DNA of 64,000 bases from positions 62,001-126,000 of the forward strand of contig JAGLON010000017.1 in NCBI GenBank assembly GCA_023138975.1. Direction: 5' to 3'. The DNA is from Candidatus Zixiibacteriota bacterium. Its GTDB lineage: Bacteria; Zixibacteria; MSB-5A5; GN15; JAAZOE01. Positions 4,972-50,545 of this stretch are shown in pieces. Under the pieces are notes generated by a model. That model saw only the letters and a list, made by a program, of their open reading frames with translations. It did not search any database and was not told where the DNA came from. How positions within the stretch are numbered: the stretch's first letter is position 1; the number at the start of each line of letters is the position of its first letter. A program made the position numbers and the translations under genes.

Positions 4972-4972
4972 A

Positions 4973-6376: not shown

Positions 6377-6378
6377 AA

Positions 6379-14598: not shown

Positions 14599-15876
14599 AT
14601 GGCAGAGATTACACCTGTCAAAGACCAAATCACGGCCGATGTGCTGGTTGTGGGCGGAGGCATCGCCGGAATAACCAGCGCTATTGAGACCGCTGAGGTC
14701 GGTAAACAAGTGATACTCTTAGAGAAAGAACCGTCTTTGGGCGGTCGGGTCGCTGCAATGAACCTGTATTTCCCTAAGATGTGTCCGCCTACCTGCGGAA
14801 TCGAAATCAATCTGAAACGGATCCGATTAAACCCGAATATTCGGGTTTTGACTCTGGCCGACATCGAAGAGATTACGGGTCAGCCGGGCAATATGGTAGT
14901 CACAATCAAACTCAAACCGCGCTATGTCAATGAAAGATGCACCGGTTGCGGCGAGTGTGAAAAAGTCTGTGAACTGGAACGGGAAAATACTTTCGATCAC
15001 GGTATGTCTAAAACGAAAGCTATTTATATACCGCATCTTATGGCTTATCCGGCTCGCCATATCATCGACCCGGAATTCGTCAAAGACGAAAGCATGAAAA
15101 AAGTCGCCGAGGCTTGTCCTTACGATGCCATCGATCTGGACATGGAAGCCAAAACAATCACCGCCAAAGTCGGCGGAATTGTCTGGGCAACCGGCTGGAA
15201 ACCGTACGATGCCACCAAAATTGACAATCTGGGCTTCGGTAAATATAAAAACGTTCTGACTAACGTTATGATGGAACGCCTGGCATCAGCCAACGGTCCG
15301 ACCAAGGGCAAAATCATTCGCCCCTCGGATAACAAAGAAGTCACTTCGGTTGGGTTTGTTCAATGCGCCGGCTCTCGTGATGAGAACCATCTCCCCTACT
15401 GCTCAGCCATCTGCTGCCTGGCTTCGATGAAACAGACGACTTATATCAGAGATCAGTATCCGGACGCAGAAATCCACATGTTCTATATTGATGTTCGTTC
15501 CCCGGGCCGTCTCGAAGATTTCTATACCAAGAAACAGGAAGACGAGAAAGTGCATTTCCATCGCGGTAAAGTCGCCAAGATTACCGAAAACGCTGATAAT
15601 GGAAATTTGATACTGCATGCGGAAAACACCCTGACCGGTAAAATGACCACGACCGAAGTCGAAATGGCCATTTTGGCTATCGGAATGGTTCCCAATGCAG
15701 TTGACAGTCCGCCCCCGCTTGATACCAAGCTGGATGAATACGGGTTTGTCGCGCAGGATAATGATAACGGTATCTATGGAGCCGGCGTGGCCTCACGGCC
15801 ATTCGACGTTTCCGGAGCAAATATGGATGCTACCGGCGCTGCCCTGAAAGCCATTAACAGCGGGGTAAGGAGGTAA
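14599..15876 (+). CDS. qmoA: Quinone-interacting membrane-bound oxidoreductase subunit A (HdrA-like flavoprotein)
   Basis: VLVVGGGIAGITSAIETAEVGKQVILLEKEPSLGGRVAAMN, CTGCGECEKVC, C-terminal GAALKAINSGVRR; followed by qmoB. Confidence 0.92.
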   Translation: MAEITPVKDQITADVLVVGGGIAGITSAIETAEVGKQVILLEKEPSLGGRVAAMNLYFPKMCPPTCGIEINLKRIRLNPNIRVLTLADIEEITGQPGNMVVTIKLKPRYVNERCTGCGECEKVCELERENTFDHGMSKTKAIYIPHLMAYPARHIIDPEFVKDESMKKVAEACPYDAIDLDMEAKTITAKVGGIVWATGWKPYDATKIDNLGFGKYKNVLTNVMMERLASANGPTKGKIIRPSDNKEVTSVGFVQCAGSRDENHLPYCSAICCLASMKQTTYIRDQYPDAEIHMFYIDVRSPGRLEDFYTKKQEDEKVHFHRGKVAKITENADNGNLILHAENTLTGKMTTTEVEMAILAIGMVPNAVDSPPPLDTKLDEYGFVAQDNDNGIYGAGVASRPFDVSGANMDATGAALKAINSGVRR

Positions 15877-15879
15877 GTC

Positions 15880-18132
15880 ATGGATCCAAAAATCGGAGTA
15901 TATATCTGTAACGGCTGTGACATCGGTAAATCTGTCGAAGTCGATAAGCTCATTGAAGCCGGTACCGGACAGGGCGCGGCAGTTTGTAAAGCTCATGACT
16001 GTCTGTGCAGTCCAGAAGGCGTTCAGCTGATTCGCGATGAAATTAAGAGCGAAGCACTTACCCACATTGTTGTCGGCGCCTGCTCACAGCGGGTCTTTCC
16101 TGAATTGTTTACCTTTGGCGATGAGATCCTCGTTGATCGCGCCAATCTTCGGGAACAGGTTGCCTGGTGCCATAAACCGAACGACGAAGATACACAGATG
16201 CTGGCCGAAGACCAAATCCGAATGGGTGTTGCTAAAGTAAAAGTAACGACAGCCCCGGTTCCTTATACCGAGGACACCTCCAAAGATATCATGGTTATCG
16301 GCGGCGGTATAGCCGGTATGAATTCCGCTATTGCGGCAGCCGATGCCGGGCACAATGTTACTATCGTTGAAAAAGAAAATCAATTAGGCGGTTGGGCAAC
16401 CAAATTTACTAAAGTGTTTCCCAAAAAAGCCCCGTACAAGGACCTTGAAGATTCCGGCTATGAAGAACTTGTAAAGAAGATAAACGATGATAACAGCATT
16501 ACCGTTTATTTAAATTCCACGATTGCAAAGACTTCCGGTCAGCCCGGAAAGTTTGAAGTTACCCTCAATGTTGATGGCGGTTCGGCTGAGTTTGTCACCG
16601 GTTCGATTATTCTGGCTACCGGCTGGAAACCGTATGACGCAACCAAATTAACGCATCTTGGTTTTGGAGATTCCCCCGATATTATCACTAATATCGATAT
16701 GGAAAAGATGGTTGCCGACGGCGCCATCAAGCGTCCTTCCGACGGTAAACCGGTCGAGAGTATCGCCTTTTTACAATGCGCCGGATCCCGCGATCAGGAT
16801 CATCTGCCTTATTGTTCAGCGGTCTGCTGCCGCGTTTCTTTGAAACAGGCCAAGTATGTCCGAGAACAGTACCCGGACGCAAAGGTTTATATCATTTACA
16901 AAGATGTCCGCACTCCGGCTCAGTATGAGGCTTTCTATGCCAACGTTCAGGAAGACGATGGCATATTCATGACCAAGGGTGAGATTGCCAAAGTAAGCGC
17001 GGATAATGGCAAAGTCCTGATTGATGTCGAGGAAACGCTGCTCGGTGAAAACATTCAGATTGAGGCCGACATGGTTGTTTTGGCCACCGGCATGGTTCCA
17101 ACGACAAAAGTCGAAGACCTGGTGATCGAAAAATCTGAAGAAGCTCAGGTCGAAGGCGAAGAAGCTCCAGCAAAAAAAGATGCTCCGGCCGAAGGCGAAA
17201 AATCTGAAGCCGCCAGTGCCGAACAGGGCGCCAAGATTATCAACCTGACCTATCGTCAGGGTACCGATCTTCCAACCCTCAAATACGGATTCCCGGATTC
17301 ACATTTTGTCTGCTTCCCGTATGAAACCCGTCGCACGGCTATTTATGCCGCCGGTGCGGTACGGGCTCCCATGGATCTTTCATCAGCGGCATCCGACGCC
17401 TACGGTGCCACATTGAAATCGATTCAGGCCGTAAATTTAGTCAGCAAAGGTATGGCACTTCACCCCCGAGCCGGAGATACAACTTACCCGGATTTCTTCT
17501 TCCAAAAATGTACACAGTGTAAGCGGTGTACGGAAGAATGTCCGTTCGGAGCGCTGGATGAAGATGAAAAAGGCACACCACTGCCGAATCCGTTCCGTTG
17601 CCGCCGTTGCGGTATCTGCATGGGCGCCTGCCCGGAACGTATCGTTTCCTTCAATAACTACAGCGTTCACATGGTCTCCTCGATGATTAAGTCGATTGAG
17701 ATACCGGATGAGTTCGAGGAAAAACCGCGTATTCTGGCCTTTGTCTGCGAAAACGACGCTATGCCATCGGTTGACATGGCCGGTCTTAAGCATATGCAGT
17801 ACAACTCTATGGTTCGTATTATCCCACTGCGCTGTTTAGGCTCAATGAACTCGGTCTGGGTCAGCGACGCGTTATCGGTCGGATTTGACGGTATTCTGCT
17901 TATTGGCTGTAAAAAAGGCGATGATTATCAATGTCACTTCGTCAATGGCAGCGAGCTCGCTCATATCCGAATGGATAATGTTCGGGATAAACTCAAACAG
18001 TTAGTCCTCGAAGAAGAACGGGTCGAAATCCATGAATTGTCGATATCCGATTACCATAAAATCCCGAAAATCTTCGACGATTTTCTCGAAGTTATGGAAC
18101 AGGTTGGACCAAACCCATACAAAGGAATGTAG
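15880..18132 (+). CDS. qmoB: Quinone-interacting membrane-bound oxidoreductase subunit B (HdrA-like with ferredoxin and MvhD-like C-terminus)
   Basis: IGVYICNGCDIG..., GGGIAGMNSAIAAADAG, CTQCKRCTEECPFGALDEDEKGTPLPNPFRCRRCGICMGACPERI, C-terminal GCKKGDDYQCHFVNGSELA. Confidence 0.92.
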   Translation: MDPKIGVYICNGCDIGKSVEVDKLIEAGTGQGAAVCKAHDCLCSPEGVQLIRDEIKSEALTHIVVGACSQRVFPELFTFGDEILVDRANLREQVAWCHKPNDEDTQMLAEDQIRMGVAKVKVTTAPVPYTEDTSKDIMVIGGGIAGMNSAIAAADAGHNVTIVEKENQLGGWATKFTKVFPKKAPYKDLEDSGYEELVKKINDDNSITVYLNSTIAKTSGQPGKFEVTLNVDGGSAEFVTGSIILATGWKPYDATKLTHLGFGDSPDIITNIDMEKMVADGAIKRPSDGKPVESIAFLQCAGSRDQDHLPYCSAVCCRVSLKQAKYVREQYPDAKVYIIYKDVRTPAQYEAFYANVQEDDGIFMTKGEIAKVSADNGKVLIDVEETLLGENIQIEADMVVLATGMVPTTKVEDLVIEKSEEAQVEGEEAPAKKDAPAEGEKSEAASAEQGAKIINLTYRQGTDLPTLKYGFPDSHFVCFPYETRRTAIYAAGAVRAPMDLSSAASDAYGATLKSIQAVNLVSKGMALHPRAGDTTYPDFFFQKCTQCKRCTEECPFGALDEDEKGTPLPNPFRCRRCGICMGACPERIVSFNNYSVHMVSSMIKSIEIPDEFEEKPRILAFVCENDAMPSVDMAGLKHMQYNSMVRIIPLRCLGSMNSVWVSDALSVGFDGILLIGCKKGDDYQCHFVNGSELAHIRMDNVRDKLKQLVLEEERVEIHELSISDYHKIPKIFDDFLEVMEQVGPNPYKGM

Positions 18133-18611: not shown

Positions 18612-19826
18612 ATGGCGGATCAACTCCCAAACACCCCAATTCTCGACGAGCTCGAAAAGGGTACTTGGCCTAGTTTTGTAAAAGAAATCAAATTAGCGGC
18701 CAAAAACAGCCCAATGTCTCGCGATCTTCTTGGACTCTTGGAACAGTCTTATGAAGAAAAAATCGGCCATTGGAAACATGGCGGTATTGTTGGTGTAATG
18801 GGTTATGGTGGTGGTGTCATCGGAAGGTATTCAGATCTTCCTGAGAAATACCCCAACGTTTCACATTTCCATACGATTCGAATCAATCAGCCGTCCGGCT
18901 GGTTTTACACCTCAGAAGCTCTGCGCACGCTTTGCGATATCTGGGACAAACATGGTTCCGGTTTGACCAACATGCATGGTTCCACCGGTGATATCGTTTT
19001 CCTCGGCTGCCGCACAGAAGCGCTAGAGCCAATCTTTTCGGAGTTAACCGAAGCTGGCTTTGACCTTGGCGGTTCCGGCTCAGATGTTCGTACTCCGAGC
19101 TGTTGCGTCGGCCCGGCCCGTTGCGAGTGGGCTTGTTATGATACGCTTGCGTTAACTTACGACTTAACCATGCATTATCAAGACGAACTGCATCGTCCGG
19201 CCTTCCCGTATAAGTTCAAATTTAAAATGTCCGGTTGCCCGAATGACTGCGTTGCATCAATTGCCCGCTCCGATATGTCCATCATCGGAATCTGGCGTGA
19301 CGACATCCAGATTAATCATGATGAAGTCACAAAATACGCCGAAGGCGGCATGAACATTCAGCGTGATGTTGTTGGCAATTGCCCCGGTAAGTGTATGGAT
19401 TGGGATGGCAAAGAACTCAAGATTGAGAATAGCTATTGCCGCCACTGCATGCACTGCATTAACGTTATGACCAAGGCTCTGCGCCCCGGTAAAGATCGCG
19501 GCGCCTGTGTCCTCCTCGGATCCAAAGCTCCGATCGTTGAAGGTGCTCTGTTGTCATCAGTTCTGATTCCGTTCTGGAAACCGAAACCACCGTACACCGA
19601 CTTGAAAGACATGGTCGAACGGATGCATGACGTATGGTGTGAAGAAGGTAAGGCCCGTGAACGTATTGGAGAATTCATCCAGCGCGTCGGTCTGGGCAAC
19701 TTCTTGGAAGAGTGCGAGATTGACATTGCTCCGGAAATGGTTGCCCATCCCCGTGAGAACCCATATATCTTCTATGAAGAATACTATGAAGAAGATGACG
19801 GCGAAGAGGATGAAGACGGCGAATAA
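18612..19826 (+). CDS. dsrA: Dissimilatory sulfite reductase subunit alpha
   Basis: [56 protein letters not shown]; followed by dsrB and dsrD. Confidence 0.97.
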
Positions 19827-19882
19827 TTCGTCGCCGAACGTTAACGAGAAATTAACCTTTTGAATGATATAGAGGTTTTAAA

Positions 19883-20953
19883 ATGGCTGAAAGATTAACC
19901 GATATAGGCCCGCCACATTATGAGAAGTTTCTGCCTCCGATTGTTAAGGAAAACTATGGTAAGTGGCTGTATCATGAAGTTCTGAAACCAGGTGTCATGG
20001 TTCACGTTTCTGAATCCGGCGCCAAATTATTTACGATTCGTGCCGGTTCACCGCGCCTTATCAGCACCGAAAAGATTCGCAATTATGCTGATCTTGCTGA
20101 AAAATACTGCGGCGGTCATCTCCGTTTCACCAGCCGTCACAATGTTGAGTTTTTACTTACCGACGAAAAGAACATCGATCCTCTGATTAAGGATTTGGCT
20201 GATCTGGGACACCCGGTCGGCGGTATTGGCAATGCTATCTCCAGCATCGTCCATACTCAGGGTTGGGTTCACTGTCACTCGGCCGCGACCGATGCGTCCG
20301 GTGTTGTAAAAGCCGTAATGGATGATCTGAACGAGTACTTTACCAGCACCAAGCTTCCGGGTAAACTCCGTATAGCTTTGGCTTGCTGTCTTAACATGTG
20401 CGGCGCAGTTCACTGTTCGGATATCGCTATTCTTGGTATTCACCGTCGTCCTCCGAAAGTCAACCACGACACCTTGAGAAAGATGTGTGAAATCCCGAGT
20501 GTGAGCGCGTCCTGTCCGACAGCTGCTATTCGCCCGGCAACCGTTAACGGCAATCCATCGGTAGAGGTTTTGGAAGACCGCTGTATGTTCTGCGCGAACT
20601 GCTACACGGTCTGTCCGTCAATGCCTCTGAACGATCCGCTGAATGACGGTATTTCCATCTGGATCGGTGGCAAGGTATCCAACGCCCGCCACGAGCCAAT
20701 GTTCTCGAAACTGGCTATCCCGTTCATCCCGAACAATCCTCCGCGCTGGCCCGAAGTGACCACCGCGATCAGGAACATTGTCGAACTGTGGGCAGCTAAT
20801 GCCAATAAGTACGAACGTATGGGTGAGTGGATTGAACGTATCGGTTGGCCTAAATTCTTTAAGATGTCGGGTATTGAGTTCCAGAAGGAACATATCGACG
20901 ACTTTAAGCACGCCGGTCTGACCTTCAAACGTTCAACACATATAACCTTTTAA
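19883..20953 (+). CDS. dsrB: Dissimilatory sulfite reductase subunit beta
   Basis: [62 protein letters not shown]. Confidence 0.97.
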
Positions 20954-20964
20954 GGACAATAGTC

Positions 20965-21210
20965 ATGGCGAAAACAGCTGAAGAAATTGCGGATGCCATG
21001 TTCAAGATGGTATCGGATGCGCAAGGCCTTAAAAAACTGAAACCGGGCGATTTGAACAAGCTAATGATTCAGACGTATCCGGATGAAGTTGATAAGAAAC
21101 TCTGTAAAGCGGCGATTAAGTTACTGGTCAACAACGGCAGATGCGTTTATACGTATTTTGGCGGCAGTTTCATCGAATTACCGCACAGAGAAGGCGCCGC
21201 TAACGACTAA
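20965..21210 (+). CDS. dsrD: DsrD, winged-helix activator of DsrAB
   Basis: 81-aa ORF directly after dsrB with DsrD-like sequence ...VDKKLCKAAIKLLVNNGRCVYTYFGGSFIELP. Confidence 0.92.
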   Translation: MAKTAEEIADAMFKMVSDAQGLKKLKPGDLNKLMIQTYPDEVDKKLCKAAIKLLVNNGRCVYTYFGGSFIELPHREGAAND

Positions 21211-21235
21211 TACCCGTTTTCGGGTATAGAGTGCT

Positions 21236-22669
21236 ATGGGTGTAAATAGAGCGCGCATGGTCATCGCCGGATTATCCGGTGATTCGGGAAAAACGATTGT
21301 CAGTCTTAGTATCCTGGCGGCACTTCGCCGCCGTGGACTGAAAGTCGCGCCTTTCAAAAAAGGTCCCGACTATATCGACCCCGCCTGGTTAAGCGAAGCG
21401 GCCGGTTTTCCCTGCCGTAATCTCGATACTTATCTGGCCGGCTTCGATAGCGTCCTAAATGCGTTTACTACTTATTCTCATGGTGCTGAGATGTCGGTCG
21501 TAGAAGGCAATCGCGGCCTTTTCGACGGCAAAGATGCCAAAGGTACACACAGTACAGCGGGGCTGGCAAGATTATTGTCTGCCCCGCTTTTACTGGTCGT
21601 CAACACGACCAAAACGACTCGAACTATCGCCGCGATAATTAAAGGATGCCTCGAATTCGAACCCAAAACACATATTGCCGGAGTTATATTAAATAAAGTC
21701 GCCGGAGAAAGGCATCAACGGGTTATTACAGAATCAATCGAGCAATATACCGGTCTTCCGGTTGTTGGAGCTATACCAAAATTGGGTAAAGACGCAGACA
21801 TCATCCCAGGTCGTCACCTCGGTTTGGTGCCACCCGCAGAGTATATGGCTGCTGATGGAGTAACTGATAAATTGTGTCAGATCGCCGAGTCATATCTTGA
21901 CCTGGACAAGATAATAGACATTGCCCAGCATGCCCCACGGTTGAACGAAGTCAAAACGACAGCTAAAAAGACTGAGACACCTTCGGTTCGTATTGGTTAC
22001 TTCAAAGATTCTGTGTTTACATTTTACTATCCTGAAAATCTTGAGGCGCTACAAGCGCACGGAGCCAAATTGGTTCCGGTTTCATCACTAACTGATTCAA
22101 AGCTTCCGGAGATTGACGCCTTATATATCGGCGGTGGTTTTCCGGAGACACATGCCCAGCAGCTTTCTTTGAATCAGTCGCTGATGGAATCGGTCAAAGC
22201 GGCAGCAAATAGAAACCTGCCGATTTACGCCGAATGCGGAGGACTTATATACCTCTGCCGTTCATTAAAATGGAAAGATCAGGCTTTTTCAATGGCGGGA
22301 GTTTTTCCTCTCGACTTGGAAATGTCTGTCAAACCGGTCGGACACGGATATACGAAGGGAACCGTCGATACCGACGGCCCGTATTTCAAAGCCGGCATGG
22401 TTATAAAAGGCCATGAATTTCATTATTCCGGCGTAATACCCGGCCAGGATGAAATCACAAGCTGTATTGAAATGAAAAAGGGCGTCGGTCTTGGAAGCAA
22501 GAGAGACGGTCTTTTATTCAAAAACAGTATGGCCAGTTATATGCATATTCATGCTTCCGGAGTACCGGAATGGGCCGAAGCGATGGTAAATAAGGCCAAA
22601 GCATACGCTCAGACCAAAAACGGTTCCGGCGGCGGAAATATATCAGGCTTTAGAATTGCCTGTCTATAG
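21236..22669 (+). CDS. dsrN: DsrN: cobyrinate a,c-diamide synthase-like siroheme amidase
   Basis: CobB/CbiA-type GLSGDSGKTIVSLSILAAL...KKGPDYIDPAWL and glutamine-amidotransferase YAECGGLIYLC; dsr operon position. Confidence 0.9.
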   Translation: MGVNRARMVIAGLSGDSGKTIVSLSILAALRRRGLKVAPFKKGPDYIDPAWLSEAAGFPCRNLDTYLAGFDSVLNAFTTYSHGAEMSVVEGNRGLFDGKDAKGTHSTAGLARLLSAPLLLVVNTTKTTRTIAAIIKGCLEFEPKTHIAGVILNKVAGERHQRVITESIEQYTGLPVVGAIPKLGKDADIIPGRHLGLVPPAEYMAADGVTDKLCQIAESYLDLDKIIDIAQHAPRLNEVKTTAKKTETPSVRIGYFKDSVFTFYYPENLEALQAHGAKLVPVSSLTDSKLPEIDALYIGGGFPETHAQQLSLNQSLMESVKAAANRNLPIYAECGGLIYLCRSLKWKDQAFSMAGVFPLDLEMSVKPVGHGYTKGTVDTDGPYFKAGMVIKGHEFHYSGVIPGQDEITSCIEMKKGVGLGSKRDGLLFKNSMASYMHIHASGVPEWAEAMVNKAKAYAQTKNGSGGGNISGFRIACL

Positions 22670-22807
22670 AAATAAGTATATAGTGTGAGGTGACTCGCAC
22701 CATAGTTTGAAAAAAGAGGAAACACTGAACTCGCTGAAAGGGTGCCGGCGCAAATGTCTGGCGCAGACATCACCGAAAGCGGAATACACTCAACAAGAGA
22801 GTTCAAG

Positions 22808-24484
22808 ATGGCTAAGATCAAGAAAAAGAAAAAAGGACTGCGTGGACGGTCATTTTCATCTGGTGGAGCTGGAGTAGAAACATCTTCACTCCGGCCGAAA
22901 CACGTACCTAAGAAACCGCCATGCGGTACAAATTGCCCGAACCACAACCAGATTCGCAAAGCCTTGATGACTGTATCAAAGGCTGAAGATGTGGGCAAGA
23001 GTTATGATCAGGCAATTGAAGAGGCGGCCTACATATTTCTCGAAACAACCCCCTTCCCGGCCACTTGCGGCCGTGTTTGTCCGCATCCGTGTGAGACAGA
23101 CTGTAACCGCAAAGCGCTGGAAAATCCAGTTGGCATTAACAGCTTTGAACGGTTCCTCGGAGATTTTGCACTGGAGCATAAATTAGTACCCAAGAAACTG
23201 ACCGATGAAACACGCTCTGAAAAAATCGCTATCATCGGTTCCGGCCCCGCCGGTATGACGGCTGCCTATCATCTGGCCCGCCGTGGGTATCCGGTCACCG
23301 TATTTGAAGCCTTCCCCAAAGCGGGTGGTATGCTTCGCTATGGTATCCCCGATTACCGCCTACCGCAGGATGTTCTGGATGCAGAAATTCAGCGCATCTG
23401 TGATATGGGTGTTGAGCTAAAAACCAACACCATCATTGGCAAAGATATCATGATGGAAGACATCAAGAAAGATTATCGCGCGTCATTTATCGGCCTCGGT
23501 GCTCACCAGGGACGATTGCTCCGGGTGGAAGGCGAAGATGCCGAAAACGTGTGGACCGGTACGGATTTCCTCCGCAAGGTCAACATGGGCGAAAAAATTG
23601 ACGTCGGCGACAAAGTCGTGACTATCGGTGGTGGTGATACCGCCCTCGATGCGGCTCGAATTGCCAAACGCCTCGGTGCGGAATCAACAATTCTGTATCG
23701 TCGCACAAAGGAAGAGATGCCAGCCATTGAAGAGGAAATTACCGGCGCTCTGGAAGAAGGCGTAGAGATTCATTTCTTGGCGGCTCCTCTATCGCTCAAG
23801 CTGGATGGTAACAAAGCTGTTGGCATGGTTTGCCAGAAGATGGAACTCGGTGAGCCGGATGATTCCGGTCGTCGTCGTCCCGTCCCGATTGAAGGCGATA
23901 CTTTTGAACTGGAGTTCTCGACATTGGTAGCGGCTATCAGCCAAGCCCCGGACTTCACCGGCTTTGAGGAGTTTATTGAAGGTAGGGACTGGATCAAGAT
24001 CGACGACAAGTGCAAGACTAAAGTCGATAATGTCTTTGCTGGTGGTGACAATATCAATCTGGATATCGCCATCACTGCTATTGCTCACGGCCGTTTTGCG
24101 GCGGAAGCGATTCACGAGATGATTACCGGTGAAGCAATTCCGAAAGTGGAAAAACCGCTGATCACATCCGATAAGATGTATCTGGCCTATTACGAGAAAC
24201 AAAACCGGACCGAAATTCATGAGTTGCCGGTGGCTGAACGTTTTGAGCCAATTGATAAAGAAATCATCTCAACCTGGAGTCAGGATGAGGCGATAGGCGA
24301 ATCCAAGCGCTGCATGAGCTGCGGTGAGTGTTTTGATTGCGGCAACTGTTGGAGTCTCTGTCAGGACAACGCCATTATTAAACCCCTCGAAAAGATGGGC
24401 GAATACAAATTCAAACTTGATTTCTGTAACGGATGTAAGAAATGTGCCGAGAACTGTCCGTGCGGATATATAGAAATGTTTTAA
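22808..24484 (+). CDS. dsrL: DsrL-type iron-sulfur flavoprotein (glutamate-synthase small-subunit-like NAD(P)H oxidoreductase)
   Basis: PCGTNCPNHNQIRKALMT, CGRVCPHPCETDCNR, IIGSGPAGMTAAYHLARRGYPVTVFEAFPKAGGMLRYGIPDYRLP, C-terminal [4Fe-4S] motifs; likely start MAKIKKKKKG (ORF opens at 22742). Confidence 0.88.
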   Translation: MAKIKKKKKGLRGRSFSSGGAGVETSSLRPKHVPKKPPCGTNCPNHNQIRKALMTVSKAEDVGKSYDQAIEEAAYIFLETTPFPATCGRVCPHPCETDCNRKALENPVGINSFERFLGDFALEHKLVPKKLTDETRSEKIAIIGSGPAGMTAAYHLARRGYPVTVFEAFPKAGGMLRYGIPDYRLPQDVLDAEIQRICDMGVELKTNTIIGKDIMMEDIKKDYRASFIGLGAHQGRLLRVEGEDAENVWTGTDFLRKVNMGEKIDVGDKVVTIGGGDTALDAARIAKRLGAESTILYRRTKEEMPAIEEEITGALEEGVEIHFLAAPLSLKLDGNKAVGMVCQKMELGEPDDSGRRRPVPIEGDTFELEFSTLVAAISQAPDFTGFEEFIEGRDWIKIDDKCKTKVDNVFAGGDNINLDIAITAIAHGRFAAEAIHEMITGEAIPKVEKPLITSDKMYLAYYEKQNRTEIHELPVAERFEPIDKEIISTWSQDEAIGESKRCMSCGECFDCGNCWSLCQDNAIIKPLEKMGEYKFKLDFCNGCKKCAENCPCGYIEMF

Positions 24485-24539
24485 AACAGAGTGTTTAAAA
24501 CTTTGAGTATAAAACAAACACCATAACGGAGGCATTAAA

Positions 24540-24857
24540 ATGGCTAAATTTGAGTGGGAAGATGTCTGCATTGACGTCGATGAAGATGGATTTATGGAAG
24601 AACCGGATCAATGGAACGAGCGCGTTGCAGTAGGTCTGGCTACTACTGAAGGCGTTGACGATTTGACCGAAGAGCACTGGAAACTGGTTCATTATCTGCG
24701 CGATTATTATGCAAAATACGGTATTGCGCCGATGATTCGTAAGCTCTGTAAAGAGACCGGATTCCCGCTGAAGAAGGTTTATGAACTGTTCCCGTCTGGT
24801 CCGGCGAAAGGCGCCTGTAAGGTTGCTGGTCTGGCCAAACCGACCGGTTGTGTGTAA
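24540..24857 (+). CDS. dsrC: DsrC sulfur-carrier protein
   Basis: C-terminal arm GPAKGACKVAGLAKPTGCV with both conserved cysteines. Confidence 0.97.
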   Translation: MAKFEWEDVCIDVDEDGFMEEPDQWNERVAVGLATTEGVDDLTEEHWKLVHYLRDYYAKYGIAPMIRKLCKETGFPLKKVYELFPSGPAKGACKVAGLAKPTGCV

Positions 24858-24870
24858 TATCTGATATATT

Positions 24871-24909
24871 TTCGGGGGTCATCGGATTTTTTGACGGGTG
24901 ACCCCCGAA
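24871..24909 (+). terminator. Hairpin between dsrC and the dsrM cluster (terminator or attenuator)
   Basis: ttcgggggtca ... tgacccccgaa, 11-bp stem; weak T tract. Confidence 0.6.
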
Positions 24910-24955
24910 TTCTATCTATTCGTTTGCGCTGACTTTAAGCATGTGATGAGGAATA

Positions 24956-25456
24956 ATGCTAACATCTCTCTTGCAAAAAAAGAGAACCGAAGTTCTGGAT
25001 AAATGGTTATCGCTCCTGGTAAACACCTATCCTCCCGAAAGCGTCAATTTTTTCCTGAATAAAAAGAATCAATTTGCCAATCCCGTCGGCTGTACCTTCG
25101 CCAAAGAACTCGGGATTCTTTTGGACTCGCTCATCGGCGACCAAAATGCCGAGGTTATATCCGGGGCGCTTCATACTATCAACAAAATTCGGGCTGTTCA
25201 GGATTTTTCCGCTTCCGAAGCGGTAGCATATATCTTCTTCCTCAAAACCGCAATCCGGGAGGAATTAGGGGATGAGCTTAAGGACACAAAAGTATTAAAA
25301 GAGTTGTTGTCGCTGGAATCCGCCATTGACGGTATGGGGCTTATCGCCTTTGATACCTATATGCAAAACCGGGAAACGCTGAATCAGATTAAATTCTCTG
25401 ATTTCAAAAGACGCTCGGAATTTTTCGGTGGAGGCCGCAAACGTTCGGACAGCTAA
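24956..25456 (+). CDS. RsbRD N-terminal-domain-like protein upstream of dsrM
   Basis: MLTSLLQKKRTEVLDKWLSLLVNTYPPESVNFFLNKKNQFANPVG...; small helical sensor-like protein as often found before dsrMKJOP. Confidence 0.7.
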   Translation: MLTSLLQKKRTEVLDKWLSLLVNTYPPESVNFFLNKKNQFANPVGCTFAKELGILLDSLIGDQNAEVISGALHTINKIRAVQDFSASEAVAYIFFLKTAIREELGDELKDTKVLKELLSLESAIDGMGLIAFDTYMQNRETLNQIKFSDFKRRSEFFGGGRKRSDS

Positions 25457-25523
25457 GAGATAAGGGGAGTTCGATGATGGCAACATCATTTCATAGTAAT
25501 AACGAGAAGGGAGGCTGACGAAG

Positions 25524-26513
25524 ATGCACGTAATTAGTTCTCTCTTCATTCTGGCTTTACTGATCGGACTGGTTTTTCTCGGGGTAGGTGTGCTTGATCT
25601 GCAGTATCTTTTCGGGGTTATTATCCCGTATGCCGCAATCACCCTGTTTTTAGCCGGTGTTATCCTCAAAGTACTTAAATGGGCGGGCGCTCCGGTGCCG
25701 TTCCGTATACCAACGACCTGCGGACAGCAAAAGTCGCTCTCCTTTATCAAGGCCGACAATCTTGAAGCTCCGCATAATATCTGGGGCGTCCTAGGTCGGA
25801 TGATTCTGGAAGTTTTCTTTTTCCGTTCACTATTCCGAAATACCAAAACAGAAATTAAAGACGAGAAAATTGTTTATGGCTCTGATAAACTTTTATGGGC
25901 AGCCGGACTGGCTTTTCATTACTCATTTTTGTTTATCTTTCTGCGCCATTTTAAGTTTTTCGCCGAACCGGTTCCTCAACTAATGAGCATCATGCAGAAA
26001 CTCGATGGCTTTTTCCAAATCGGAGTACCGGAACTGTTTCTCACTGACATCGTATTCATTGGCGCAGTAACGGTTTTATTCATCCGCCGGGTTGTAATTC
26101 CTCAAGTACGCTACATCTCACTGCCGGCTGATTATTTCCCGCTGTACCTGATACTAGGCATTGGCGGAACCGGTATCTGCATGCGATATTTCTCCAAAGT
26201 TGATATAGTTGCGATCAAGCAACTCGCAACTGGACTTATAAGCTTGAATCCGATAGTTCCCGAAGGCATAGGCATAATGTTCTTTATCCACTTCTTCCTG
26301 GTGTGCGTTCTCTTCGTTTATTTCCCGTTCTCCAAATTGATGCACTTCGCAGGTGTCTTTATGTCTCCAACCCGCAACCTAATAAACAACAGCCGCGTGA
26401 AGCGTCACATTAACCCCTGGAATCCCGAAGTCAAGGTGCATACCTATGCCGAATGGGAAGATGAGTTCCGGGAAGTTATGAAAGACGCCGGAATGCCTTT
26501 GGAGAAGGAGTAG
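25524..26513 (+). CDS. dsrM: DsrM, cytochrome b (NarI-like) subunit of DsrMKJOP
   Basis: Multi-TM protein with RIPTTCGQQKSL, paired TM histidines, PFSKLMHFAGVFMSPTRN; followed by dsrK. Confidence 0.92.
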   Translation: MHVISSLFILALLIGLVFLGVGVLDLQYLFGVIIPYAAITLFLAGVILKVLKWAGAPVPFRIPTTCGQQKSLSFIKADNLEAPHNIWGVLGRMILEVFFFRSLFRNTKTEIKDEKIVYGSDKLLWAAGLAFHYSFLFIFLRHFKFFAEPVPQLMSIMQKLDGFFQIGVPELFLTDIVFIGAVTVLFIRRVVIPQVRYISLPADYFPLYLILGIGGTGICMRYFSKVDIVAIKQLATGLISLNPIVPEGIGIMFFIHFFLVCVLFVYFPFSKLMHFAGVFMSPTRNLINNSRVKRHINPWNPEVKVHTYAEWEDEFREVMKDAGMPLEKE

Positions 26514-26516
26514 CTT

Positions 26517-28139
26517 ATGGCAGAAAAACTGATAAAACCAGAGGATCTGGCCCGCGGAATCAGCTATAAGCATCCGGAAAAAGACTGGCGCGATGTCCCG
26601 ACAGAAATGAAAAAAGGGTGCATCAACTATGGTGCTCTTCCGGCTAGTGCTGATTATCTTGACTTGCCAAACGTCAAAAAATGGCAGCCGATGCATGACG
26701 ACTGGCAATTACCGGAAAACTGGAAAGAGATTATTTTTGAAGGCTTGAAAGAGCGGCTCAAAAAATTCCGGTCACTGCAGTTATTCATGGATGTTTGCGT
26801 CCGCTGTGGCGCCTGCGCCGATAAATGTCATTTTTATATCGGTTCGGGTGATCCGAAAAACATGCCGGTCCTGCGCGCGGAACTGTTGCGTGCCGTGTAC
26901 CGCAGTAACTTTACCCTGGCTGGAAAGATTCTCGGCCGGATGGCCGGCGGTCGCGAGTTGACCAAAGATGTCATCAAAGAATGGTTCTTCTATTTTTACC
27001 AATGTACGGAATGCCGCCGTTGCTCGGTCTTTTGCCCTTACGGCATCGATACCGCCGAAATCACGATGATGGTTCGCGAACTCCTGAACCTTCTCGGACT
27101 CGGTATCGATTGGATTACGACTCCAGCCGCAAACTGTTTCCGCACCGGAAACCATCTTGGTATTCAACCGCACGGATTCAAAGATTCTGTTGATTTCGCG
27201 GTTGATGACCTTGAGGAAAACTGCGGTGTACGAGTTGAGGCTCCAATAAATAAAAAGGGTGCGGAAGTATTAGTCGTAGTTCCTTCGGCAGATTATTTCG
27301 GCGACCCTCATTATTATGGATTCCTCGGCTACATGGCCTTATTCCATGAAATCGGTTTGGATTATACTTTCAGCGCTTTTGCGTCGGAAGGGGGCAACTT
27401 TGGCTTATTCCATTCCAATGAGATGATGAAACGCCTCAACAATAAGATTTATGCCGAAGCCAAACGCCTCGGGGTAAAATGGATTATTGGCGCAGAGTGC
27501 GGGCACATGTGGCGCGTTCTTCATCAATATATGGATACGATGAATGGCCCGGCCGATTTCCTCGAGGAACCGGTATCCCCAATTACGGGAACGAAGTTTG
27601 AAAATGCTAAAGCGACGAAGATGGTTCATATCTGTGAATTCACCGCCGATTTGATCAAACACAACAAAATCAAACTCGACCCCAGCCGTAATAACCATTG
27701 GAATGTCACTTACCACGATTCGTGCAACACCGCTCGAGGAATGGGACTTCTTGAAGAACCTCGTTATATTCTCAAGAATACCTGCAACAAATTCCACGAA
27801 ATGCCGGAAAACACGATTCGTGAACAGACCTTCTGTTGCGGCAGCGGCTCCGGTATCGGAACCGACGAGAATCTCGAAATGCGCATGCGCGGAGGATTCC
27901 CGCGAGCCAATGCTGTTAAATATGTCCAAGAGAAACACGGCGTCAATCTCTTAACATGTATCTGTGCTATCGACAAAGCAACTTTACCGCCACTCCTGCA
28001 ATACTGGGTGCCGGGAGTCGAGGTTGCTGCCATTCATGAGCTGGTCGGAAACGCCCTGGTCATGACGGGAGAAAACGATAGGTCGATTGATCTGCGCGGA
28101 GACAAAATGGGCGGAAAGGAGGATACTGAGGATGTATGA
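26517..28139 (+). CDS. dsrK: DsrK, HdrD-like iron-sulfur subunit
   Basis: CVRCGACADKCHFY, CTECRRCSVFCPYGID, CCG motifs (TFCCGSGSGIG). Confidence 0.95.
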   Translation: MAEKLIKPEDLARGISYKHPEKDWRDVPTEMKKGCINYGALPASADYLDLPNVKKWQPMHDDWQLPENWKEIIFEGLKERLKKFRSLQLFMDVCVRCGACADKCHFYIGSGDPKNMPVLRAELLRAVYRSNFTLAGKILGRMAGGRELTKDVIKEWFFYFYQCTECRRCSVFCPYGIDTAEITMMVRELLNLLGLGIDWITTPAANCFRTGNHLGIQPHGFKDSVDFAVDDLEENCGVRVEAPINKKGAEVLVVVPSADYFGDPHYYGFLGYMALFHEIGLDYTFSAFASEGGNFGLFHSNEMMKRLNNKIYAEAKRLGVKWIIGAECGHMWRVLHQYMDTMNGPADFLEEPVSPITGTKFENAKATKMVHICEFTADLIKHNKIKLDPSRNNHWNVTYHDSCNTARGMGLLEEPRYILKNTCNKFHEMPENTIREQTFCCGSGSGIGTDENLEMRMRGGFPRANAVKYVQEKHGVNLLTCICAIDKATLPPLLQYWVPGVEVAAIHELVGNALVMTGENDRSIDLRGDKMGGKEDTEDV

Positions 28140-28518
28140 TTCTCCGAAAGTCCTTCTGGGACTGGTTATCTTCCTCGTACTGATCACTTTCCCGATCTGG
28201 TATAATATCGCCGGTGGAACCGCCGAATATGTACCGGAATTGGAAAAGCCGGTCAAGGGCGAAAACTGTGTTGCGGATACCGAATATATGCGCTCTTCGC
28301 ACATGGATTTACTGAATACCTGGCGTAACGAGGTTGTCCGTGACGGCGACCGAGTTTATACCGCGCCTGACGGCAAGAAGTACAACAAGAGTCTGTCCCA
28401 GACCTGTCTTGATTGTCATTCCAATAAGGAAGGCTTTTGTGATAAGTGCCACGATTATCTTAAAATCGAGCCTTATTGCTGGGACTGTCACATCATTCCT
28501 GGAAAGGAGATGAAGTGA
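28132..28518 (+). CDS. dsrJ: DsrJ, triheme cytochrome c
   Basis: Three CxxCH motifs (CLDCH, CDKCH, CWDCH) after an N-terminal TM anchor; start MYDSPKVLL preferred over 28087. Confidence 0.93.
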   Translation: MYDSPKVLLGLVIFLVLITFPIWYNIAGGTAEYVPELEKPVKGENCVADTEYMRSSHMDLLNTWRNEVVRDGDRVYTAPDGKKYNKSLSQTCLDCHSNKEGFCDKCHDYLKIEPYCWDCHIIPGKEMK

Positions 28519-29309
28519 TGGCGGTAGATAGAAGGAAATTTCTGAAGGCCGCTGGGCTCGTCGCTTTTGGCGTTGCAGCCAGCCCGTTGACTTCGGCAGC
28601 TCAGGAAGTAGATTCGCTCAACCTTATCAAACCCGAAGAGCTCCTCCAGGAGAAACCTCTGACGGCCAAACGTTGGGCCATGGTCATAGATTTAAAGAAA
28701 TGTCTCGATCATGAGAACGTAAAAGATTGTGCTAAGGCGTGTCATGAAGAACATAACGTTCCCTTCTTCGATAATCCTAAAGACGAGATCAAATGGATTT
28801 GGGATGAAGAATTTCATAACGCCTTTCACGAAGCCAATCATGAGCATATTGCGGAGAAGTACCATCATATCAAAGTACCTGTACTGTGTAATCACTGCGA
28901 CAATCCTCCCTGCGTTCGGGTCTGCCCGACTCAGGCGACTTGGCGCCGTGAAAAAGATGGTATCGTGATGATGGACTGGCACCGCTGTATCGGATGCCGC
29001 TACTGCATAGTAGCCTGTCCCTACGGCTCGCGTAGCTTTAACTGGCGCGACCCTCGTCCGCATATTGAAAAAATAAATGAGAACTTCCCCCGCCGTATGC
29101 GAGGTGTCGTCGAAAAATGCACCTTCTGCGAAGAACGGCTGGCCAAAGGTCAGATACCGGCCTGCGTAGAAGTCGCTAAAAACGACGCTATTGTATTTGG
29201 CGATCTGGAAGATCCGAATTCTAAAGTACGTGAACTGCTTCGCGAACGCTTCTCTTTAAGACGCAAAGCGGCTCTTGGAACTCAACCCGAAGTTTATTAC
29301 CTGGTGTGA
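28518..29309 (+). CDS. dsrO: DsrO, periplasmic Tat-exported ferredoxin-like subunit
   Basis: Tat-type N-terminus MAVDRRKFLKAAGLVAFGVAAS; multiple 4Fe-4S motifs; start 28518 preferred over 28476. Confidence 0.93.
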   Translation: MAVDRRKFLKAAGLVAFGVAASPLTSAAQEVDSLNLIKPEELLQEKPLTAKRWAMVIDLKKCLDHENVKDCAKACHEEHNVPFFDNPKDEIKWIWDEEFHNAFHEANHEHIAEKYHHIKVPVLCNHCDNPPCVRVCPTQATWRREKDGIVMMDWHRCIGCRYCIVACPYGSRSFNWRDPRPHIEKINENFPRRMRGVVEKCTFCEERLAKGQIPACVEVAKNDAIVFGDLEDPNSKVRELLRERFSLRRKAALGTQPEVYYLV

Positions 29310-29316
29310 GGAGAAT

Positions 29317-30471
29317 ATGTTAGAAAAAGCACTTAGTGGAGATAAACGTTACTGGACATGGATAGCGTTTCTGCTTCTGGTTATCGGGGTTGGGACCTTG
29401 GCGTACCTCAAGCAGTACAATGAAGGGTTAGGCATCACCGGCCTCAGCCGTGACGTAACCTGGGGATTTTATATCGCTCAGCTGACTTTTTTAGTCGGTG
29501 TCGCAGCCTCAGCGGTCATGGTTGTTTTACCCTATTATTTGCATAATTTCAAGGCTTTCGGGAAAATCACCATCTTAGGTGAATTTCTCGCGATTGCCAG
29601 TGTGATTATGTGTATGACTTTTGTCTTTGTGGATCTGGGACAACCGACCCGTATGGTCAATATGTTTCTGTATCCATCACTCAATTCTGTCCTTTTTTGG
29701 GATAGTGTTGTACTATCGGTGTATCTGCTTCTCAATCTGTTAATCAGCTGGGTGATGCTGGGAGCGGAGAAGAAAGATATAGCACCGCCGAAATGGATCA
29801 AACCGCTTATTTATCTATCGATCCCATGGGCGGTCTCAATTCATACCGTAACGGCGTTCTTGTATTCCGGTTTGGCCGCTCGCCCGTTCTGGCTGTCGGC
29901 CGTTATTGCTCCCCGGTTTTTGGCGTCGGCGTTTGCCGCCGGTCCTGCTTTGCTGATCATAATTTGTATGCTTCTAAGAAAGCTGACCAAATTTGATGCA
30001 GGCGATAAGGCTATCGACAAACTGGCTGTCATTATGACTTACGCCATGAGCATTAATATTTTCTTGATTCTCATGGAGCTGTTCACAGCTCTCTATAGTG
30101 GTATCCCCGAACATATATCCCATTTTGAGTACTTATTCCTCGGCATCGGAGACAAAACGGCGCTGGTTCCCTGGATGTGGTTCTCGATCTTTTTGGCGAT
30201 AGTATCGTTGATAATACTGCATTTCCCAAAACTGCGGGCAAATTATAACCTGCTGGCCTTGGGATCTGTTGCGGTGTTCTTTTCAATTTGGATTGATAAA
30301 GGCATGGGTATGGTCGTCACTGGATTCGTTCCGAATCCGCTCGGTATTGTAACAGAATACCTGCCGACTTTACCTGAAGTTCTGATTACTATCGGAATCT
30401 ACGCTCTGGGAGCGCTGATTGTAACCGGATTGTATAAAATAGCTCTGGCGGTGAAAGAAAAAGCCGCATAG
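29317..30471 (+). CDS. dsrP: DsrP, NrfD-like membrane subunit
   Basis: Polytopic NrfD/HybB-like protein completing dsrMKJOP; start at 29317 with GGAG upstream. Confidence 0.93.
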   Translation: MLEKALSGDKRYWTWIAFLLLVIGVGTLAYLKQYNEGLGITGLSRDVTWGFYIAQLTFLVGVAASAVMVVLPYYLHNFKAFGKITILGEFLAIASVIMCMTFVFVDLGQPTRMVNMFLYPSLNSVLFWDSVVLSVYLLLNLLISWVMLGAEKKDIAPPKWIKPLIYLSIPWAVSIHTVTAFLYSGLAARPFWLSAVIAPRFLASAFAAGPALLIIICMLLRKLTKFDAGDKAIDKLAVIMTYAMSINIFLILMELFTALYSGIPEHISHFEYLFLGIGDKTALVPWMWFSIFLAIVSLIILHFPKLRANYNLLALGSVAVFFSIWIDKGMGMVVTGFVPNPLGIVTEYLPTLPEVLITIGIYALGALIVTGLYKIALAVKEKAA

Positions 30472-30500: not shown

Positions 30501-30532
30501 ACGGACGGGAAAATTCCCGTCCGTTTTTTATT
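30501..30532 (+). terminator. Intrinsic terminator after dsrP
   Basis: acggacggga-aaat-tcccgtccgttttttatt. Confidence 0.85.
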
Positions 30533-30595: not shown

Positions 30596-32266
30596 ATGGA
30601 AAAATCAGATGTTGTAATCATCGGAGGCGTCGCCGCCGGACCGAAAACAGCCGCCACGCTGGCTCGCCGAAACGGCGCTTTATCCATTACTCTGTTCCAA
30701 AAAGAAGACCTTTTATCATATGGGTCATGCGGTCTACCCTATTTTGCTTCAGGAGACATCGAATCATTCAACGGGTTAGTGGAAACCTCGTACGGCATTG
30801 CCCGGGACGCTGATTTTTTTGAAAACATAAAAGGATTTAAAGCCGTGACCGGGGCTGAAGTTATAGAGATCAACAGAGATGAAAAATATATTATCATCAA
30901 GATGCTCAAATCCGGCGAAACGATCAAGCATGGTTACGATAAGTTAGTCATTGCCACCGGAGCCAATGCGATCAAGCCCCCTTTTCCAGTTGCCGAAAGT
31001 AGTAAAATCAGTTCCTTTACCCGCCCCGATGACGCAATTGCATTTCGAAAAGCGGCCCAAACCGGACAAGTGGGCAAAGTCGTAATTATTGGCGGTGGCT
31101 TCATCGGATGCGAAATGACAGAAGCCTGTGCCGGATTATGGGGTATCGAGACCGTTCTTATTGAACGGGAAAACCAAATCATGCCCTTTGTCCTTGATAA
31201 AGAAATGGCTGAAATTGCCAAACGGGAGATGACACGCCAGGATATCAAGGTTCTTACCGGTGCCGAAGTACAGAAGGTCGAACTCGACAGCGACAACAAT
31301 CCGGTAGTATACATTGATGGACATGCCCCTATCACAGCTGACTACGTTTTCCTTTGTCTCGGTGTCAAACCGGAAGTGACTCTGGCAAAAAACACCGGCC
31401 TTACTATTGGTAAAACCGGAGCCATTGCGGTAAACTCTCACTTACAAACATCAGACGACAATATCTACGCCGGCGGTGATTGCATTGAAAATAAAAACAA
31501 AATTACCGGCCAGCCATTTTTTATTCCTATGGGCTCATTGGCAAATCGCCATGGGCGGGTAATTGCCGAAAACATCACCGGCAATAAGGCTGAATTTTCT
31601 GGAGTTTTGGGAGCCTTCTTAGTCAAAGTTTTTGATACCAACGTCGGCGCCGTCGGACTGTCACAAATGAGTGCAGAAAAAGCCGGACTAAAAACAAACG
31701 CCGTCTGGGGTACATTCCCGGATAAGCCTGACTATTATCCGGAAAGCCAAGTCTTTGTGCTTAAACTAATCTATGACGCTGACACCAAACGAGTCTTGGG
31801 TTTGCAGGCGGTCGGCGCGGGAGATATCTGCCGCCGGATAGATTCAATGTCAGCCCTGCTTCAGCAAAACGCAACCCTGGATACTTTAATTGACTTTGAA
31901 CACGGTTATGCACCACCCTATTCCGATGCTTTAGATCCGCTGCACCATCTGGCCGCGATGGCCAAATCAGGTTTTGATTTCATTAGTCCCTTGACCAATG
32001 ATGAAAAAGACGCATATCTCTGGCTTGACGTGCGTGAGACCTCAGAATTCGAGGAAGCTGCCTGGCCGGATGAGATGAAAAACCGTATTAAAAATATCCC
32101 CCTGGGAAAATTACGTAGCCGAGCCAAGGAACTTGATACAGGCAGACCAATATTAGTAACCTGCATGCGAGGTCTTCGATCTTATCAGGCGGCAGTGATC
32201 CTCAAGCAGTCAGGGTTTGATAACGTACATATTCTAAGCGGTGGATTCGAGGCTTCACAACAATGA
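30596..32266 (+). CDS. CoA-disulfide reductase-like FAD oxidoreductase fused to a rhodanese domain
   Basis: VVIIGGVAAGPKTAATLAR, SYGSCGLPYF redox Cys, VVIIGGGFIGCEM, C-terminal rhodanese with CMRGLRS active-site loop. Confidence 0.88.
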   Translation: MEKSDVVIIGGVAAGPKTAATLARRNGALSITLFQKEDLLSYGSCGLPYFASGDIESFNGLVETSYGIARDADFFENIKGFKAVTGAEVIEINRDEKYIIIKMLKSGETIKHGYDKLVIATGANAIKPPFPVAESSKISSFTRPDDAIAFRKAAQTGQVGKVVIIGGGFIGCEMTEACAGLWGIETVLIERENQIMPFVLDKEMAEIAKREMTRQDIKVLTGAEVQKVELDSDNNPVVYIDGHAPITADYVFLCLGVKPEVTLAKNTGLTIGKTGAIAVNSHLQTSDDNIYAGGDCIENKNKITGQPFFIPMGSLANRHGRVIAENITGNKAEFSGVLGAFLVKVFDTNVGAVGLSQMSAEKAGLKTNAVWGTFPDKPDYYPESQVFVLKLIYDADTKRVLGLQAVGAGDICRRIDSMSALLQQNATLDTLIDFEHGYAPPYSDALDPLHHLAAMAKSGFDFISPLTNDEKDAYLWLDVRETSEFEEAAWPDEMKNRIKNIPLGKLRSRAKELDTGRPILVTCMRGLRSYQAAVILKQSGFDNVHILSGGFEASQQ

Positions 32267-32293: not shown

Positions 32294-33511
32294 ATGCTTC
32301 CCTGTAACTGGCGATTATTGCTTTGCGGTATTAATCATACAACGGCATCGTTGGAACAAAGAGAACCTCTGCAGCTAAGTCGCGATGAATTGGCTCCGGC
32401 CAATGCGGCGATATTCAAACAAAACGGCCTGAAAGAGGCTATTGTTGTCTCGACTTGCAATCGAATCGAGTTTTATTTAATCGCCGAACTCCATCGCGAA
32501 GCCTTTGAAATTGTAGCTGAATTCTATCAAAATTCCAAGCAAATAGATATCTTGCCTCTCAAAGAACAGTTCTATATTAAAAAAGATAAACATGTTGTCG
32601 ACCATCTCTTTCGGGTAACCTCTGGAATTGATTCAATGGTCTTGGGCGAAAACCAGATTATGGGCCAGGGAAAAGAAGCTTATTCCGCCTCCTGCGCCGC
32701 CAAATCGGCCGGAAAAATTATCCATCGGCTATTTCATCAAGCCTTTAGAATAGGCAAACAGGTTCGCACCAATACCGAGTTGGGCAAAGGCGCTTGTTCG
32801 GTCGCCAGCGCCACCATTGACCTCCTTAGGACGAAAATTAAAGCCATAGAAAATCCGACGATTTTGTTTATCGGTTTGAATAAAATGATAACGCTGGCGG
32901 TATCCCGCCTTAATCGCTACGGCTATAACAATTTCATCTTTGCCAATCGAACCAGAGAAAAAGCTGTCGAGTTCGGACAGCAGTATCATGTTGACGGATT
33001 CGGACTTGATAATCTCGCCGATTTATTGAGCCAGGCGGATGTTGTTGTATCATGTACCGGAGCAGATGAAGCCATCATAGACGATAACCTGATCAGCAAA
33101 GCACTAAGTTTGAATGAGAACAAACAATTGCTGATCGCCGACATGGCTGTTCCTCGCGATGTAGATATAAAACAGGATTACCCCGGTCTTGAGATTTACG
33201 ACCTGGAAGCTGTGCAAGAATTCGTCAAGGAAAAACAGGCGAAGCGTCGCGATGCTATTCCTCAAGCGGAAAGAATTATCGAATACAAGCTGGAGCAGTT
33301 TGTATATTGGTACGACAGTGTCCGTCACGAGCCAGCTTATAATGATCTTGGCGAGGCTTATGAACGAACCCGCGAGCATGAAATGAAAAAAATTATGCCG
33401 ATGCTGGATGAAGACAGTCGCGAGTTGGTTGACAGAGCGACTAAACGATTGATAAATAAACTTTTACATATAAAGAACCGTTCCCAAAGTAAAGCGGAAC
33501 AAACGGAGTAA
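32294..33511 (+). CDS. hemA: Glutamyl-tRNA reductase
   Basis: CGINHTTASLEQREPL, VVSTCNRIEFY, GIDSMVLGENQIMGQ. Confidence 0.95.
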   Translation: MLPCNWRLLLCGINHTTASLEQREPLQLSRDELAPANAAIFKQNGLKEAIVVSTCNRIEFYLIAELHREAFEIVAEFYQNSKQIDILPLKEQFYIKKDKHVVDHLFRVTSGIDSMVLGENQIMGQGKEAYSASCAAKSAGKIIHRLFHQAFRIGKQVRTNTELGKGACSVASATIDLLRTKIKAIENPTILFIGLNKMITLAVSRLNRYGYNNFIFANRTREKAVEFGQQYHVDGFGLDNLADLLSQADVVVSCTGADEAIIDDNLISKALSLNENKQLLIADMAVPRDVDIKQDYPGLEIYDLEAVQEFVKEKQAKRRDAIPQAERIIEYKLEQFVYWYDSVRHEPAYNDLGEAYERTREHEMKKIMPMLDEDSRELVDRATKRLINKLLHIKNRSQSKAEQTE

Positions 33512-33515
33512 CAAC

Positions 33516-34247
33516 ATGGCTAACAAATATATGCCGATTAGTATTTCCATCAAAACGCATCGCTGCCTCGTTGTCGGCGGCGGACAAATTGCCATTCGGA
33601 AAATCGAAACCATGATCGATTTTGGCGCAGAGATTACCGTCGTCGCCCCTAAACCCCTGAAAAAAATCGAGTATTATGCCTCTCAGGGAAGAATTAAAAT
33701 AGAAAAACGTGAATATAAATCACCCGAAGCCGGGGATTATGGAATGGTCATATCGGCAACTGATGATGCAAAAGTAAATCAAACCGTTTATGATGATTGT
33801 CACAAAGCCGGTGTTCTGGTCAATGTCGTTGACAACCCACCGCTGTGCGATTTCATTTTTCCAGCTATATTAAAACGTGATTCGATGACAATCTCGATTT
33901 CCACCGACGGCAAAGCGCCGTTTTTGGCCGCCCACCTACGGATTATCCTGGAAAACATCTTCCCCAACCATTGGACTCGTATTGTAGAACTCGCCGGAGA
34001 TTTCCGCAAAAAAGTCATTAAAAAATGGGGCGATAACACCAAGGAAAGATTCGCCAGCCTTGATAGATTCCTGTCTGCTGACTGGAAAACTCTAATTAAG
34101 AGTAAAAACAACGCCGAACTCCAGGAACAGCTCGATGCTTTACTCGAACCACAGCCTGACGAAGATGAACCGGAACAGGAACAAACCCCTCAGTGCGGTG
34201 ACGACTCACAGAGTCCGATTACTCTGGAATTCGGAGAGGATAAGTAA
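33516..34247 (+). CDS. Precorrin-2 dehydrogenase / sirohydrochlorin ferrochelatase-like protein (CysG N-terminal / MET8-like)
   Basis: HRCLVVGGGQIAIRKIETMIDFGAEITVVAP, VVDNPPLCDFIFPAILKRDSMTISISTDGKAP. Confidence 0.9.
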   Translation: MANKYMPISISIKTHRCLVVGGGQIAIRKIETMIDFGAEITVVAPKPLKKIEYYASQGRIKIEKREYKSPEAGDYGMVISATDDAKVNQTVYDDCHKAGVLVNVVDNPPLCDFIFPAILKRDSMTISISTDGKAPFLAAHLRIILENIFPNHWTRIVELAGDFRKKVIKKWGDNTKERFASLDRFLSADWKTLIKSKNNAELQEQLDALLEPQPDEDEPEQEQTPQCGDDSQSPITLEFGEDK

Positions 34248-34255
34248 ATACCGGT

Positions 34256-50169: not shown

Positions 50170-50532
50170 ATGAAGTGGAAATGTAGAAAAGAAGATGGAT
50201 TTACACTTCTGGAAGTAATGACATCAATGTTTATCATGTCATTCTCCATGCTTATATTATTGCATCTGGCTATGATAGCAGTCGATGGAAACACTTGGGC
50301 TTCCGGAACAACGTCCAGCACTCAGCTTCTTCAAGAAAAACTTGAAGATTTGAGATCTCAGGCTAATCCGGCTTCCGGCGCAGATACAGTCAACGATATT
50401 ATCAGAAACTGGACCGTATCCACCGTCGCGACTCATTTGCGCCAGGTTACACTTTCAGCAACCTGGTACTCTCCGGATTCAGTGGGTCAGACGTACACCA
50501 TTAACTCCTATATTAAAACGGATCTTCCATAG
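50170..50532 (+). CDS. PilV-like minor pilin
   Basis: EDGFTLLEVMTSMFIMSFSMLILLHLAM prepilin N-terminus. Confidence 0.8.
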   Translation: MKWKCRKEDGFTLLEVMTSMFIMSFSMLILLHLAMIAVDGNTWASGTTSSTQLLQEKLEDLRSQANPASGADTVNDIIRNWTVSTVATHLRQVTLSATWYSPDSVGQTYTINSYIKTDLP

Positions 50533-50545
50533 GAGGGATAATAAC

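Follow-up and report, generated by a model that had tools for sequence, protein, structure and literature searches.

A 64 000-nt stretch of a Candidatus Zixiibacteriota genome (hereafter, the window) encodes both DsrD and a DsrL-like protein in one dsr operon, which raises the question of what the DsrL-like protein is and in which direction the operon works. An earlier note had read dsrA, dsrB, dsrD, dsrN, dsrL and dsrC as co-directional, taken the pairing of DsrD with DsrL as unusual and suggested that the latter may be of the DsrL-2 type in a reductive organism. All six genes were found, as part of a single co-directional operon (dsrA-B-D-N-L-C-T-M-K-J-O-P, 18612–30471, plus strand). The window also contains sat, aprBA and qmoABC, in keeping with the note's description of this set as complete:

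14599–18132, plus strand: qmoA and qmoB (HdrA-family matches)
18612–19826, plus strand: dsrA, dissimilatory sulfite reductase alpha (TIGR02064, 563 bits, cut-off 393)
19883–20953, plus strand: dsrB, reductive bacterial type (TIGR02066, 496 bits; DsrB tree)
20965–21210, plus strand: putative dsrD, divergent winged-helix form (position, profile similarity, AF2 model)
21236–22669, plus strand: dsrN, CobB-type a,c-diamide synthase (TIGR00379, 441 bits)
22808–24484, plus strand: dsrL, assigned to the DsrL-2C type, 558 aa (domains, motifs, tree)
24540–24857, plus strand: dsrC (PF04358, TIGR03342)
24956–25456, plus strand: protein in the dsrT position, between dsrC and dsrM, with an RsbRD_N domain (PF14361)
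25524–26513, plus strand: dsrM (NF038037, 514 bits)
26517–28139, plus strand: dsrK (NF045796, 724 bits)
28132–28518, 28518–29309 and ~29317–30471, plus strand: dsrJ, dsrO and dsrP (ORFs, start sites, synteny with loci L052, L064 and L055)
30501–30524, plus strand: strong terminator-like hairpin with a 10 bp stem and a T tail, 3′ of dsrP at the operon end
35888–37117, minus strand: qmoC (NF038018, 401 bits, cut-off 300)
37810–39045, plus strand: sat (TIGR00339, 371 bits)
39110–39547, plus strand: aprB (PF12139), followed up to 41432 by aprA (TIGR02061, 884 bits; true start probably at 39564)

Spacing within the dsr cluster ranges from short overlaps to gaps of 138 bp, with 11 bp between dsrB and dsrD. 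Both cysteines are present at the C-terminus of DsrC (GACKVAGLAKPTGCV), and the product of dsrN, a gene assigned from its operon position and the literature, is expected to amidate siroheme. Published dsrABDNCTMKJOP clusters likewise have dsrT between dsrC and dsrM (PMC10504309). The qmoB match 5′ of dsrA is shared by the relatives L052 and L064. The qmoC gene lies 17.8 kb from qmoAB on the opposite strand, where it adjoins sat-aprBA.

The DsrL candidate has an Fer4_20 domain at residues 35–125, Pyr_redox_2 at 139–428 and a cysteine-rich C-terminus at 502–552. This is the full layout expected of DsrL, namely an N-terminal two-cluster ferredoxin, an FAD domain with an embedded NAD(P) domain, a linker and a C-terminal two-cluster ferredoxin. 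The gene is complete, dsrAB is present in the genome, and its neighbours are dsrN and dsrC, not POR/KOR genes. The NAD(P)H-binding residues and the C-terminal linker, which the earlier note had singled out for inspection, also fit: the linker spans 91 residues from the GGD motif (412) to Cys502, close to the ∼100 aa of DsrL, and a YRR motif, as expected of DsrL-2, is found at residues 297–299 in the NADP-binding domain. Since YRR is also carried by NfnB/GltD and some PRK12771 relatives outside DsrL, it is not sufficient on its own, and we rejected it as sole proof of DsrL-2. Two other residues align with cysteines of NfnB. Ser26, at the position of Cys39, agrees with the Ser/Thr of DsrL and is invariant in our alignment. 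Arg29, at the position of Cys42, is replaced by Cys in the sampled DsrL proteins linked to oxidative DsrAB; the Lambdaproteobacterium DsrL has Leu here, as published, which serves as a check on the alignment. Ser and Arg at these two positions have been published as the signature of those DsrL-2 proteins that accompany reductive DsrAB.

We then placed the protein in a tree of the Zixibacteria orthologues and 80 named relatives, each scored for adjacent dsrAB, dsrD and dsrC; none of these 80 loci was a certain DsrL-1, so the tree is probably without a DsrL-1 branch. The DsrL proteins encoded beside dsrD and reductive dsrAB formed a single clade (support 97/94), which includes that of the window. 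Nested within it, the Zixibacteria proteins formed one clade (100/99), and the nearest clade from outside the phylum comprised Calditrichota, Ignavibacteria and Bacteroidota. The closest named loci were from Candidatus Zixiibacteriota, among them L052 (CSMAG_807), which belongs to the same family as the window genome. Judged by its domains, motifs and position in the tree, the protein is a true DsrL of the DsrL-2C subtype, as the earlier note had suspected at the level of DsrL-2.

The adjacent 81-aa DsrD is less easily recognised. It gave no PF08679 match in a Pfam model search even at E ≤ 10, and Pfam, phmmer and profile searches against the PDB returned no useful sequence match. Aligned to the canonical DsrD profile with hhalign, it reached E = 5.6e-5 and a probability of 66%, and its AF2 model is a winged helix (pLDDT 88). 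The fold matches were to generic winged helices, and the known DsrD structure did not rank among the best 50, so the fold is not decisive by itself. Because Pfam misses the protein, the dsrD call rests on position, profile similarity and the winged-helix model. Where the canonical motif is YWSSGST, DsrD of the window type reads YxYFGGS. All 50 Zixibacteria genomes with dsrB had a homologue of this type, and relatives adjoin DsrL in many DsrL-2C lineages. We considered whether the divergent form is an adaptation to DsrL; this idea is weakened by the same DsrD type in one genome of the Thermodesulfovibrionales, a lineage reported as mostly without DsrL, which makes a tie between this type and DsrL improbable. 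Neither PF08679 nor the window-type profile found a match in two Desulfosporosinus genomes that have dsrB. Pfam-based surveys would under-count dsrD, the YxYFGGS type being invisible to PF08679.

Globally, 133 Zixibacteria genomes contained dsrB in 50 cases, dsrD in 51 and a DsrL match in 53, with all three in 48 (counted as genomes, not as independent events). The same number, 48, had both dsrB and dsrL, against two with dsrB only and five with a DsrL match only; several exceptions to the co-occurrence are fragmented genomes. In 45 of the 48, dsrB and dsrL were on one contig with starts 2.8–4.1 kb apart. The same cluster and order were found in three genomes of the same family (DsrL identity 74–78%) and in relatives from other studies, single-contig genomes included. 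As the order recurs in relatives and dsrB and dsrL co-occur so consistently, the arrangement is not due to chance. One of the 53 DsrL matches, in genome G039, is not a stand-alone DsrL: this 1243-aa HdrA-type fusion (L022:289-4020 on G039:C19) embeds a DsrL/PRK12771-like module at residues ∼296–842 that is 50% identical to the DsrL of the window. No dsrB was found in the G039 genome, and the fusion suggests an NAD(P)H-linked HdrA.

With regard to direction, a DsrB tree placed the protein on the reductive side of a split with 100% SH-aLRT support, apart from the oxidative DsrAB type. The genome has one copy of dsrA, and no second dsrAB was found elsewhere in it. The reported absence of dsrEFH from the window extends to the whole genome, in which the search gave no DsrE-family match above cut-off, and to the phylum (0 of 133 genomes). 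We therefore rejected a hidden dsrEFH or second dsrAB, bearing in mind that gene absences are not final in a draft genome of 93.6% completeness and 108 contigs.

We consider it probable that the window encodes a complete sulfate-reduction set in which NADPH electrons pass through DsrL-2C to DsrAB during sulfite reduction, while DsrMKJOP reduces the DsrC trisulfide. Sat would activate sulfate, and AprAB with QmoABC would reduce it to sulfite. DsrAB, with DsrD as its probable allosteric activator, would then reduce sulfite and load the sulfur onto DsrC as a trisulfide, from which menaquinol electrons delivered by DsrMKJOP would release sulfide; the roles of DsrD and DsrMKJOP are taken from the literature. 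DsrL-2C would carry the NADPH electrons via FAD, and probably via its iron-sulfur clusters, to DsrAB, and the NADPH may come from an NfnAB-like pair, whose genes are present in the genome. We infer cofactor preference, electron flow and direction from characterised relatives. By analogy with the DsrL-2 of Desulfurella amilsii, which works with NADP(H) but not NAD(H) (PMC7596348), the ‘NAD(P)H’ of the earlier note can be narrowed to NADPH, and the rDsrABL proteins of A. vinosum catalyse NADH-dependent sulfite reduction in vitro. Against the proposed mechanism, electron transfer in A. vinosum is independent of the iron-sulfur clusters of DsrL, and classical deltaproteobacterial sulfate reducers work without DsrL. 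For sulfate reducers, Diao et al. (2023, PMC10591310) give the protein that donates electrons to DsrAB as either an unknown oxidoreductase or DsrL. Since the dsr operon of nearly all dsrAB-bearing Zixibacteria includes the DsrL-2C gene as a fixed element, NADPH supplied by NfnAB may even be the obligate donor in this phylum, filling this ‘unknown donor’ slot of canonical reducers, a stronger claim that we put forward only tentatively.

Several other explanations were weighed. The protein might be a generic oxidoreductase, GltD/Nfn-like or of the PRK12771 (POR-linked) type, that sits in the dsr operon by chance. Its best NCBIfam match is indeed the broad subfamily PRK12771, which settles nothing on identity, and some PRK12771 relatives share both YRR and the domain order. 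However, every DsrL fell on one side of a branch with 100/98 support that separates them from the GltD/Nfn/PRK12771 outgroup, and none of the outgroup proteins sampled has Ser at the NfnB-39 position. AU tests rejected the grouping of the window protein (p-AU 4.5e-13) and of all Zixibacteria DsrL (p 2.5e-4) with the outgroup, and across the phylum dsrL stays linked to dsrABD. Grouping with generic GltD-like proteins, by which the earlier note's assignment would have fallen, is thus refuted within the sampling used, and this explanation is very improbable. An assembly or binning chimera, conceivable for a draft of 108 contigs, has hardly any probability left and is refuted by the synteny with same-family genomes and with independently studied relatives described above.

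A true DsrL in a genuine operon could still work differently from the route proposed here. The operon might be reversible or serve sulfur disproportionation, in which case DsrL-2 would work oxidatively and reduce NADP+ with electrons from DsrAB. Some sulfur oxidisers pair DsrL-2 with oxidative DsrAB, reductive Dsr sets also operate in disproportionators and in certain sulfide oxidisers, and a CoA-disulfide-reductase/rhodanese fusion is encoded directly 3′ of the operon. We regard this as unlikely given the reductive DsrB, dsrD, dsrT, the Arg-type DsrL-2C and the lack of DsrE, all the more so as Diao et al. (2023, PMC10591310) propose that DsrL-2C beside reductive DsrAB indicates reduction. Less likely still, DsrL-2C might not serve DsrAB directly and instead link NADPH to ferredoxin, DsrC or another partner via its C-terminal ferredoxin domain. 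Conservation of this domain would fit such a role, but A. vinosum DsrL functions with rDsrAB, and the linkage of dsrL to dsrAB is strict. We predict that a reductive DsrAB, together with its own DsrL-2, reduces sulfite at the expense of NADPH, and the tight linkage of dsrL to reductive dsrABD makes Zixibacteria a good place to test this.

That dsrD and dsrL occur together, that the pair is read as reductive and that Zixibacteria have it is correct but already known, and the earlier view of the pairing as unusual has been superseded. A 2020 paper described DsrL-2 alongside reductive DsrAB and listed Zixibacteria (PMC7596348); DsrD together with DsrL-2 was reported in Zixibacteria in 2023 (PMC10591310); and a 2024 study assigned dsrD/dsrL-2 lineages, Ca. 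Zixibacteria among them, to a reductive ‘group three’ (PMC11406059). As DsrL-2C with DsrD and reductive DsrAB was thus described for many phyla between 2020 and 2024, sulfate-reducing Zixibacteria included, our observation is not new. The window matches these DsrL-2C and group three systems in its reductive DsrAB, dsrD, dsrL-2, lack of dsrEFH and phylum, and does not differ from them in kind; what it adds is a further genome, in which a single contig bears the whole cluster in order. All genes of the canonical reductive cluster dsrABDNCTMKJOP (PMC10504309) are present here in the same order, with dsrL added between dsrN and dsrC. In Kapabacteria (Ca. Thermonerobacter), the cluster dsrAB-D-N-hyp-L-C (PMC6338057) has dsrD and dsrL together in the same order, but with an extra hypothetical gene between dsrN and dsrL, and dsrP and dsrTMKJO are not in one run with it. 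D. amilsii, as described (PMC7596348), likewise combines reductive DsrAB with a DsrL-2. DsrL was once regarded as typical of sulfur oxidisers, but the presence of dsrL alone is no marker of one.

Other genes in the window were also of note. The CoA-disulfide-reductase-like protein with a C-terminal rhodanese domain (30596–32266, just 3′ of the dsr terminator) is a candidate that may process persulfide or polysulfide. After the dsr operon, at 32294–35794, genes for a glutamyl-tRNA reductase, a siroheme-synthase-type NAD-binding protein and a methylase-HemD fusion likely constitute a local siroheme supply. At 2102–7113, four adjacent proteins have pilin N-methylation motifs, and two of the four are large proteins with C-terminal LamG-type lectin domains, and ORF reading revealed more paired pilin-like genes at 50170–55646.
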